DNA of 64,000 nt from Haloglycomyces albus DSM 45210 (GTDB lineage Bacteria; Actinomycetota; Actinomycetes; Mycobacteriales; Micromonosporaceae): assembly GCF_000527155.1 (NCBI RefSeq), contig NZ_AZUQ01000001.1, forward strand, positions 924,554 to 988,553. Direction: 5' to 3'. Below are positions 31,329 to 33,702 of the stretch, in pieces. Positions within the stretch are counted from its first letter, which is position 1. Each line of letters begins with the position of its first letter. The position numbers were made by a program, and so were the translations under genes. The notes beneath the pieces were generated by a model that saw only the letters and a program-made list of their open reading frames with translations, was not told where the DNA came from and did no database searches.

Positions 31329-31748
31329 TTACATCGACATTGTTCCCGCCATGCCGCCCCAGAAAATCATTCCTACGACACACGGCAGTACCAAAGCCAG
31401 AATTCCTGTGGCCAAGCCACCAATGGCCATCCCCTTGTTCGTGGCCTCCCCTTTGTTTGCCTTCGCAAGACCGATCGATCCGAAGATGATGCCCAGAATG
31501 CCGAGCACCCAACCGAAGAACGCGATAAAGGGAATCCATGCGAGAGCAAGGCCGATAACACCACACACCAGACCGGCAGTGCCCAGCCCGTTTTGTGGCA
31601 GTTGCTGTGGCGGTCCATAGGGAGACTGTCCCGGTGCGGGCGCTGGCCCCATCGAATAGCCGGGTTGTTGCTGCTGGTAGGGATCGCCCGGTGTTCCCTG
31701 AGGTCCTTGCGGGCTGGGGCCGGGTGGTCCGGGAGGCATGTTCGTCAT
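31329..31748 (-). CDS. DUF4190 membrane protein with P/Q-rich head
   Basis: A 139-residue protein with a proline/glutamine/glycine-rich head (1-50) and two membrane segments. A DUF4190-type pattern runs between them: GTAGLVCGVIGLALAWIPFIAFFGWVLGILGIIFGSIGLAKANKGEATNKGMAIGGLATGILAL. These small proteins are common in actinobacteria and have no assigned function. It resembles its upstream neighbour at 31805-32371 in layout and in the conserved ANKGxAxNKGMA loop, so the two are tandem paralogues. Confidence 0.82.
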   Translation of the reverse strand: MTNMPPGPPGPSPQGPQGTPGDPYQQQQPGYSMGPAPAPGQSPYGPPQQLPQNGLGTAGLVCGVIGLALAWIPFIAFFGWVLGILGIIFGSIGLAKANKGEATNKGMAIGGLATGILALVLPCVVGMIFWGGMAGTMSM

Positions 31749-31804: not shown

Positions 31805-32371
31805 TTATGCTATTGTCGACAAATAGCTCGCACACCCATTATACGCTGCGACATCATCCGGCACAGATCCGTTATTGCCCACATGTTCGACTCCACCCGA
31901 CGCTTGACGACGTGGAATTTTCACGACATTGATCGGCAATAAGCCCCCGATCGGTCCGAACAACAGATTCCAGAAGACGGTCAACGCCACGATCGGAGCC
32001 GCCAAGGCCAATACCCCGGTTATCAGACCGGTCACGGCCATCCCCTTGTTGCTCGCCGCTCCCTTGCTCGCTTTGACGAGACCGACGCTCGACAGCACGA
32101 TCGCCGTCAGCGCCAACAGCCACGCCAGCAAGCTCAGTAGCACCATGGGCACGAGGCCGATCAGCAATCCACCGATCCCACACAGCATGCCCGCCGTCCC
32201 GAGACCGTTCTGCATCGGCCGTTGCGAGCCATAAGGAAACTGCTGTCCCATCGCATGGCCGGAATGCGGCTGTTGCGAGTAACCGGGATACGGTTGCTGT
32301 TGATAGGGAGCTCCACCATACGGCTGTGGCTGCTGGTAAGGCCCCGGTTGTCCGGGTGGCATCTGCGTCAC
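31805..32371 (-). CDS. DUF4190 membrane protein, tandem paralogue
   Basis: A 188-residue protein with a P/Q/Y-rich head (1-55), two to three hydrophobic segments, and the KASKGAASNKGMAVTGLITGVLAL loop shared with the downstream paralogue. The C-terminal 40 residues are polar and lack counterparts in the paralogue. The start is a GTG, or the ATG three codons later; GAGGG precedes both. Function is unknown. The structured RNA candidate at 32.54-32.77 kb lies upstream on the opposite strand. Confidence 0.8.
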   Translation of the reverse strand: MTQMPPGQPGPYQQPQPYGGAPYQQQPYPGYSQQPHSGHAMGQQFPYGSQRPMQNGLGTAGMLCGIGGLLIGLVPMVLLSLLAWLLALTAIVLSSVGLVKASKGAASNKGMAVTGLITGVLALAAPIVALTVFWNLLFGPIGGLLPINVVKIPRRQASGGVEHVGNNGSVPDDVAAYNGCASYLSTIA

Positions 32372-32539
32372 GGGTGCCCTCGTTTCGATAAGGGTTGGTA
32401 TAGGGGATTACGTATCTCTCGTATGCCTCGATCCTACAAACGACCGTCACACCACCGCATAACTCCGTCTAGACGGTTCTGAAAGAATTTCCTGTAACCG
32501 CTTTACTACTAGCGAGTACAGGCGTACAAATGAATTACG

Positions 32540-32726
32540 GAATCCAAGGGACTTCAGTAAGGAAGATGCTTCCAGAAGACCTGAGGGAACCGTACACAGC
32601 CACCGAGAACCCACGTGCGACTAGAGCCGTCGGGAGGCAAGAAGGGCTAAACGCTGCAGAGTTAAGCCCCGATAAAGAGACTCACGCTTGGTAACTCGGC
32701 ACGGATGTGACAGCGAAATATCGCAA
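32540..32726 (+). ncRNA. candidate structured non-coding RNA
   Basis: A gene-free stretch with several local stems in plus orientation. CTTCAG pairs with CTGAGG around an inner GGAAG-ATG-CTTCC hairpin (about 32552-32586). GGGCTAAAC pairs with GTTAAGCCC (32644-32669, one A-A mismatch). CCGAG can pair with CTCGG across the middle, and GCGA-AATA-TCGC lies just before the terminator. A textbook terminator follows directly. Together these suggest a discrete RNA of about 200-250 bases. It does not match tmRNA, SRP RNA, RNase P or the riboswitches I know. It could be a leader for the RDD gene, but the terminator lies about 100 bases before that gene. Confidence 0.5.
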
Positions 32727-32766
32727 ATACGGCCCAATCAGCGGAGCAACGCAGGTTGGGCCGTAT
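32727..32766 (+). terminator. intrinsic terminator of the candidate RNA
   Basis: Perfect 11-bp stem (ATACGGCCCAA / TTGGGCCGTAT) with an 18-base loop, followed by ATTTT. No protein-coding gene precedes it on the plus strand, so it most likely ends a non-coding transcript or attenuates transcription into the RDD gene. Confidence 0.75.
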
Positions 32767-32862
32767 ATTTTGCCTCACCGATCATGATTTCAGGTGCCGT
32801 ATCGCCACACCTGGATTGCCGCTCAGGACACATCGCCGAATCCAGCTGGCAGAATAGAGCCG

Positions 32863-33702
32863 ATGAGTGCGATTGAACCTGGGTGGTACCCCAATCCGTC
32901 CGACCCCACCGAACAACGTTACTGGGACGGCTCCCAATGGGTCGGTAAAGCGGTTGCCATCGGGGAGGAACCGCCCGACACGCCCGAACCGCTTGACCCC
33001 GAACCGGAACCCGACCTCAACGATCATACGCACCCCGATGCGTCCTCCCCCACCATCATCCCCAAAGCCCCCGGCAACTATCCCCCGAAAGACGCCGTGG
33101 AGATCCGATCCATGGGCGCACTCGTCGGGTGGATCGCCCGACGCGATGTCACCCGCATGCTTCAAGGACGCGCTCTCGCTCCGCCCGGTTCCCGTCTCGG
33201 GGCCCGGCTCGTCGACATCGCCTGTGTCGCGTTCCTTTCCCTGGTCGTCAATTTCTATTTCCTGTACCAGCTTTACCAGGAACTACGCCCGAGCATTGAC
33301 CAAGCGATGGCGGGAACCCCGTTCTGGGAAATCGACACTCCCGACGATCCCGGGCTTACTATGACCATCATTCTTCTCACCGTCGGCGTCTGGTTCGCCT
33401 ACGAAGTCCCCACCACTCTGAACAACGGCCAGACACTGGGGAAACGCATTTTCAAGATTAAGGTCGTATCCCTGGCTCCCAATGATCCCGGGTGGGGTCG
33501 CAACATCATTCGGTGGATGTACACGGCTCTGCCGCTCGTCTGCTTCCCCTGGGGAGCGTTCGTGTGGCTGATCGACGGCATTTGGTGCTTGTCCGACCGT
33601 CCCTTCCGGCAGTGCCTGCACGACAAGTCACCGGGCACGATCGTTGTCGACGCCTCCGCGGAGCCCGCCGAGCCGTCGAACCCGACTAAAACCATCGACT
33701 GA
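32863..33702 (+). CDS. DUF2510 and RDD domain membrane protein
   Basis: A 279-residue protein from ATG 32863; the longer frame has no support. The N-terminal DUF2510 motif reads IEPGWYPNPSDPTEQRYWDGSQWVGKAV. A disordered P/D/E-rich linker follows. The C-terminal RDD domain (about 110-260) has GSRLGARLVDIACVAFLSLVV, GQTLGKRIFKIKVVS and a pair of final membrane helices. RDD proteins are small membrane proteins, some with transport roles; this one is uncharacterised. It is monocistronic, just upstream of pat. Confidence 0.83.
   Translation: MSAIEPGWYPNPSDPTEQRYWDGSQWVGKAVAIGEEPPDTPEPLDPEPEPDLNDHTHPDASSPTIIPKAPGNYPPKDAVEIRSMGALVGWIARRDVTRMLQGRALAPPGSRLGARLVDIACVAFLSLVVNFYFLYQLYQELRPSIDQAMAGTPFWEIDTPDDPGLTMTIILLTVGVWFAYEVPTTLNNGQTLGKRIFKIKVVSLAPNDPGWGRNIIRWMYTALPLVCFPWGAFVWLIDGIWCLSDRPFRQCLHDKSPGTIVVDASAEPAEPSNPTKTID

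Follow-up and report, generated by a model that had tools for sequence, protein, structure and literature searches.

What is encoded between a divergently transcribed DUF4190-like gene and an RDD-family gene in Haloglycomyces albus DSM 45210, and is it a regulator of its neighbour or an independent RNA? We have addressed this in a window of 64,000 nucleotides, by which we mean the whole stretch of DNA analysed (C1:924554-988553 of a one-contig, 3.54-Mb genome, G000; window G+C content 60.7%), and by comparison with other genomes. The initial annotation had placed a candidate non-coding RNA at 32540-32766, limits which are right to within a few bases; homology gives 32537-32771 (+), a free-standing, structured RNA gene with a terminator at its end. 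Taken as a whole, the sequence comparisons make us highly confident that this locus is an actinobacterial Ms1 RNA gene, in a member of the Glycomycetales, with a predicted promoter and terminator of its own and a bubble that most likely binds the RNA polymerase core. The features of the locus are as follows:

31805-32371 (−): DUF4190-like gene, divergent neighbour (Pfam PF13828, E 5.7e-5, 23.2 bits, cut-off 35)
32502-32507 (+): predicted −35 promoter element TTTACT, 17 bases upstream of the −10 box
32525-32530 (+): predicted −10 promoter element TACAAA (a TA[CG]AA[AC] box occurs in 100 of 198 homologue cores)
32537-32771 (+): Ms1 RNA gene, about 235 nt; homology to the 5′ end of Ms1 puts its first base at A32537
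32537-32593 (+): 5′ hairpin (P1), closed by ACGG/CCGT, from the minimum-energy fold; outside the covariance models R1 and R2 described below
32595-32709 (+): main stem (P2) with central bubble and inner hairpins, from the fold and helix conservation
32609-32621 (+): 5′ side of the conserved bubble arm, ACCCACGTGCGAC, almost invariant in alignments A2 and A3
32626-32638 (+): conserved bubble arm GCCGTCGGGAGGC, the region with a 3-nt length difference in Glycomyces and the window genome
32644-32669 (+): variable apical hairpin (P3), from the fold
32683-32699 (+): conserved 3′ arm CACGCTTGGTAACTCGG, from sequence conservation
32727-32771 (+): intrinsic terminator, a 13-bp stem (32727-32739/32754-32766) with an inner 3 bp, then ATTTT
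32863-33702 (+): RDD-family gene, downstream (Pfam PF06271, E 4.9e-22)

Extent, promoter and terminator

The nearest recognised gene upstream of the RNA is the DUF4190-like gene on the opposite strand; there is thus no recognised protein gene directly upstream on the plus strand, as had been noted from the sequence, of which the RNA could be the tail. Two DUF4190-like genes adjoin one another here (31329-31748 and 31805-32371, both −), and both score under the Pfam cut-off.

The 5′ end is predicted by comparison with a Mycobacterium-genus locus (L137), in which the match to the Rfam Ms1 model opens with the A of ACGGAAG, six bases past TACAAA; M. smegmatis Ms1 is likewise published as beginning with an A (PMC4191392). 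The window has TACAAA, then six bases, then ACGGAAT, the same −10-to-start spacing as in L137, and we therefore predict a start at A32537. Among the 100 homologue cores with a TA[CG]AA box, ACGG lies 6-7 bases past the box in 58, and the best −35 element is TTTACT at a spacer of 17 in 21; the other 98 of the 198 cores have no such box within the scanned part, so that the universality of the promoter motif is not established. A simple promoter scan around the RNA returned 0 promoter-like sites.

At the 3′ end, the terminator had been called a textbook example, which is slightly generous, since its 13-bp stem is followed by ATTTTG with four T only. A simple terminator scan of 5 kb listed four sites (3.9 expected by chance), and the RNA's terminator is not among them because two of the scan's settings, a loop limit of 3-8 bases and a need for five T in eight, are both unmet by it. 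By sequence prediction, the locus is a single-gene unit bounded by a promoter and a terminator of its own, and its size is within the expected range (about 230-300 nt).

Identity and conserved structure of the RNA

The remark that the RNA matches none of the common families was a fair one. An Rfam search of the window, proposed at the time as a check, gave no useful match at gathering or permissive thresholds, and even Rfam's Ms1 model (RF02566) finds nothing in the window at E up to 10. The same model, applied at E up to 0.01, finds nothing in four RNA-bearing loci of the window genome or its relatives (L001, L006, L075 and L101), and L039 and L065 yield nothing up to E 0.1. This failure on the window RNA and at these loci counts against Ms1; the window RNA thereby falls short of the model's 162-bit cut-off, which is a matter of curation rather than of biology. 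However, when RF02566 was run on six loci, L039 and L065 among them, it gave 322 bits at L137, 105 at L087, 33.6 at the Streptomyces-genus locus L144 (E 2.4e-5) and 29.5 at L107 (E 3.4e-4), all four of which are also matched by R1 or R2; because the Streptomyces-genus Ms1 itself scores 33.6 bits only, the 162-bit threshold does not define the family. BLAST is reported to find no similarity between the Ms1 RNAs of S. coelicolor and M. smegmatis (PMC9130861).

We have compared the RNA with Ms1 in both directions, using R1, a covariance model built from 17 sequences of the window genome's family only, and R2, a model built from 40 loci linked to a HAD hydrolase gene, none of them from that family; the sequences of the two models are independent and their structures are not, the R2 alignment having been fitted to R1. 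To identify Ms1 without recourse to synteny, published oligonucleotides were used to locate it in Streptomyces- and Mycobacterium-genus genomes, the genus labels being inferred from the oligonucleotide sites and, for L137, also from its match to RF02566. The S. coelicolor Ms1 3′ RACE primer has a two-mismatch site in one of 61 Streptomyces-genus genomes (L144), and the M. smegmatis anti-Ms1 oligonucleotide has sites with 1-3 mismatches in eight of 148 Mycobacterium-genus genomes, with one mismatch in L137. R1 matches the RNA at L144 with an E value of 5.2e-8 and at L137 with 3.4e-5, each beside a HAD gene, and matches the other seven Mycobacterium-genus loci weakly (E 0.0009-0.3); a HAD gene is present at all nine of these loci. 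In the reverse direction, R2 picks out the window RNA (32595-32711, 63.3 bits) at an E value of 7.2e-14, the second-ranked site in the window reaching only 2.6, and in a search of the whole of G000 it returns the window RNA alone up to E 0.5, this time with an E value of 2.1e-12. No second copy of the gene is found in G000 by R1 or R2. The RNA thus shares ancestry with the Ms1 RNAs that bind core polymerase, by the R1 and R2 tests, and of the earlier suggestion of a 6S/Ms1-like RNA it is the Ms1 half that stands. A literature search with conserved strings of 12-14 bases returned matches only in papers with seemingly unrelated titles.

The nested stems and terminator noticed at the outset are borne out, the fold consisting of a 5′ hairpin, a main stem with inner hairpins, and the 13-bp terminator stem. 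This is the Ms1 architecture, described as one long hairpin interrupted by a bubble, with a short hairpin towards either end (PMC4191392; PMC9130861). Folding energy was considered as proof of this structure and dropped: the whole RNA has z = −5.14 and none of 200 shuffles folds as well, but most of that signal comes from the terminator, and because the RNA without it has z = −1.55, with 14 of 200 shuffles folding as well, energy alone cannot prove the part ahead of the terminator. It is the comparison with other genomes, not folding energy, that places the feature beyond chance.

For that comparison, stem arms were collected solely on their sequence motifs, with no use of structure, which gave 182 distinct pairs. 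In the helix CCGAG/CTCGG, whose five pairs lie outside the motifs, 830 of 910 cells are standard pairs (91.2%), as against 54.5% and 54.2% when the helix is slid by one base, and none of 1000 shuffles reaches 830 (shuffle mean 770); these shuffle counts, like those that follow, are not probabilities, because the sequences are related. The comparative alignment that had been recommended agrees, with paired positions varying together above shuffled expectation: in alignment A4, both partners change in 13 of 18 pairs, a count that none of 500 shuffles attains, with a covariation score of 0.351 against 0.130 for shuffled alignments. A4 and R2 were aligned with R1, and their alignment thus leans toward its structure. 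The family-only alignment A2 gives a weaker signal, with seven of 18 pairs changing in both partners (equalled or exceeded by 12 of 500 shuffles) and a number of further pair types that is not above shuffles (176 of 500). The window RNA forms 15 of the 18 A2 consensus pairs, those that do not form being one bubble pair and two of the six in the apical helix, and its minimum-energy fold and the consensus differ inside the bubble. All six apical-helix pairs vary on both sides in A4, and four of them form in the window RNA.

The bubble region (window 32621-32638) is 3 nt longer in Glycomyces and the window genome than in the Stackebrandtia genome G045, and 2 nt longer in another Glycomycetales genome, G013, a lineage-specific change in the most conserved part of the RNA.

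Compared with M. smegmatis Ms1 (MTS2823; RF02566), the window RNA shares the bubble motifs ACCCACGCG ... CACGCTTGGT, the −10-to-start spacing, the 5′ hairpin, the bubble-bearing stem and the terminator, but it is shorter (about 235 nt, as against about 300 nt), with a much shorter apical part, does not lie beside a HAD gene and is not detected by RF02566. S. coelicolor Ms1 (scr3559) is similar in length at about 230 nt (PMC9130861), and R1 matches in a Streptomyces-genus genome at the near-match of the published RACE primer; it differs in that a HAD hydrolase gene adjoins it, whereas DUF4190-like and RDD genes adjoin the window RNA.

A descendant of Ms1 that has given up polymerase binding and acts on other targets in the Glycomycetales is the alternative that fares best, and we consider it very unlikely: it would suit the new neighbourhood described below and a bubble region 3 nt longer than that of the genus Stackebrandtia, but bubble sequence and helices alike are strongly constrained, and the spacing of the promoter is that of Mycobacterium Ms1; this retention of bubble, helices and spacing fits an unchanged partner such as RNA polymerase. 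Less probable still, to the point that we give it hardly any weight, is 6S RNA proper, which associates with the sigma-bearing holoenzyme and serves as a template for pRNA. Its overall shape is similar, a long hairpin with a central bubble that is said to imitate an open promoter (PMC9130861), but Rfam's 6S models give no match for the window RNA either at the gathering cut-off or at E up to 10, the Ms1-anchored profiles match strongly, and the Ms1 RNAs of Mycobacterium and Streptomyces bind core polymerase rather than holoenzyme (PMC4191392; PMC9130861), the form bound by 6S (PMC9130861).

Genomic neighbourhood and distribution

The usual neighbourhood of Ms1 is a HAD hydrolase gene (PMC9130861), which is typical of the family and does not define it, and its absence beside the window RNA is a second point against Ms1. 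Instead, a DUF4190 homologue precedes the RNA and an RDD homologue lies 3′ of it, each in 19 of 20 loci of the genus Glycomyces (g12), as in the window. The closest counterparts of the window in both the RNA and its adjoining genes come from Glycomycetales genomes. Of the two neighbours G013 keeps DUF4190 alone, and five loci of the genus Stackebrandtia show neither. The suggestion of a riboswitch or other cis-acting leader ending transcription ahead of the RDD gene at 32863, to which the position upstream on the same strand and the terminator at the RNA's end lend some appeal, is thereby rendered highly improbable, since the RNA is conserved with no RDD or HisC homologue within about 1.5 kb at six of six loci (G013 and the five Stackebrandtia-genus genomes), lies beside HAD genes elsewhere, and so holds no conserved position upstream of the same gene.

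Returning to Ms1, we note that in other families the RNA lies behind a HAD-IB hydrolase gene: HAD is present at 20 of 21 extra-family loci from an order-wide R1 search and at 13 of 14 weaker loci (L087-L100). The stretch examined lacks a HAD gene at L073 and L091, the latter probably being a chance match. Within the window genome's family, the seven matching Glycomycetales genomes (G000, G013 and the five Stackebrandtia-genus genomes), together with the 20 g12 loci, have no HAD beside the RNA, nor do four further family genomes (G007, G012, G025 and G034); HAD lies beside it in the remaining 19 of the 30 R1-matching family genomes, including G042, in which the RNA core begins 135 bases past the end of the HAD frame. 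In the window genome the HAD homologue is at C1:1217928 and the RNA at C1:957148, 261 kb apart, and the gap behind that homologue (about 0.5 kb to the next frame of at least 90 aa) contains no Ms1. The two HAD loci of G000 (L104 and L105) give no R1 match at E up to 1 and no Rfam Ms1 match, and L104 gives no R2 match at E up to 10. Among the class-search loci L107-L135, 18 of 29 likewise have no HAD within 1.5 kb, and its absence is therefore not definitive against Ms1.

Two side observations concern the HAD loci. In G007 (C4:178020-190459), Ms1 and the HAD gene are on the same strand about 12 kb apart, an arrangement that may be an intermediate of relocation. In L103, L101, L039, L065 and L137, the HAD gene typical of Ms1 has a 6C RNA (RF01066) close by; L103 is a Stackebrandtia HAD locus in which the 6C RNA is present though Ms1 has left, and none was seen at the window genome's HAD locus, L104.

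It is reported that 84% of Ms1 cases are near the origin and transcribed toward it (PMC4191392), again a usual and not a defining feature. Taking dnaA as the origin, the window RNA is 245 kb away in the 3.54-Mb genome and points toward it; of the four Glycomycetales genomes checked, the RNA points toward dnaA in G000 (245 kb), G045 (about 834 kb) and G004 (280 kb), and away from it in G013 (386 kb), the last being a third point against Ms1.

Conservation in relatives is found by BLAST, by a core pattern and by R1. BLAST with a 301-base region matches six of 101 genomes, the window genome included, and is too insensitive to give the true spread. The core pattern matches 32 of 300 family genomes, among them 21 of 22 of genus g12, compared with two of 300 for the pattern read backwards; a pattern scan gave at least 119 stretches, of which 80 are listed. 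When R2 was run on 24 named pattern loci, eight had no match (seven labelled as other phyla and one as Phytohabitans) and one Glycomyces locus matched at E 0.26 only; the unmatched loci and the backward matches indicate that the short pattern also matches by chance. With R1, 30 of 40 family genomes, picked mostly to give a single one for each genus, match at E up to 0.01; in the order, 87 of 249 genomes match at E up to 0.1, and in the class 78 of 296 do so at E up to 0.05. The order and class searches were run with stricter filters, which lose weak matches, and their weakest matches may be due to chance.

There are also genomes with no match. G202, a fragmented Glycomyces-genus genome that is 92% complete, matches neither the pattern nor R1 nor R2, possibly because of an assembly gap. 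No R1 or R2 match is found in the 98-100% complete family genomes G003 and G044 (both of genus g4), G001, G010, G019, G031, G033 and G035, and g4, a large genus of the same family, has no genome among the pattern, R1 or R2 matches; several genera thus seem to be without Ms1. Two MAG contigs, labelled by their submitters as Geodermatophilaceae (L164, 3056-3167, −) and Frankiaceae (L183, 693-809, +), carry Ms1 matches beside HAD, with R2 E values of 6e-17 and 2e-16 respectively.

Proposed function and significance

We propose that the gene would be transcribed from its own predicted promoter (TTTACT-17-TACAAA), starting at about A32537 and stopping at its own intrinsic terminator at about 32771, and that the RNA would form a hairpin at its 5′ end, a long stem interrupted by a central bubble, and a terminator hairpin. 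Through much of the class the bases of the bubble hardly vary, and the bubble most likely binds RNA polymerase core without the primary sigma factor, as in Mycobacterium and Streptomyces; such binding, mainly in stationary phase, would provide a reserve of core enzyme. Transcription, polymerase binding and a stationary-phase role in the window genome are what we infer by homology. In M. smegmatis, loss of Ms1 is reported to slow outgrowth from stationary phase and to lower the amount of polymerase (Sikova et al. 2019, as cited in PMC9130861 and PMC11077062), removal of the bubble weakens polymerase binding (PMC4191392), and in stationary phase Ms1 accounts for more than 60% of the reads from polymerase-bound RNA (PMC11077062); a search of titles and abstract openings found no structure of Ms1 with polymerase. 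CoRP RNA of Corynebacterium is another abundant RNA on an actinobacterial RNA polymerase (PMC11077062), but it is set apart by its description, being about 500 nt with close homologues reported in Corynebacterium only (PMC11077062).

A 2022 survey reports that neither Ms1 nor its synteny was detected in the Frankiales, Geodermatophilales and Glycomycetales, and offers two options: the Glycomycetales and Geodermatophilales might do without Ms1 in their regulation, or Ms1 might be present with its neighbourhood lost (PMC9130861). The Glycomycetales carry a gene homologous to Ms1, with a conserved structure, that has been relocated. The comparisons directly support the second option for this order, in which the shift of the gene to other surroundings explains why Ms1 was reported missing. 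Beyond PMC9130861 we found no literature report bearing on Ms1 in Glycomyces or Stackebrandtia, in a search whose coverage left most subscription journals outside.

A short sequence-and-structure profile now connects the Ms1 RNAs of Mycobacterium, Streptomyces and Glycomyces, where the Rfam model misses the window RNA, and it indicates the bases most likely to be in contact with the RNA polymerase core. We tentatively raise the further possibility, with doubts of our own, that the near-invariant bubble is a sequence-specific ligand of the polymerase core inherited from the ancestor of the class, and that Ms1 is far wider in distribution than synteny searches showed, including the Glycomycetales and probably the Geodermatophilaceae and Frankiaceae. 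If this is true, genera with no match of any kind, such as g4, would need a replacement RNA or would live without one.
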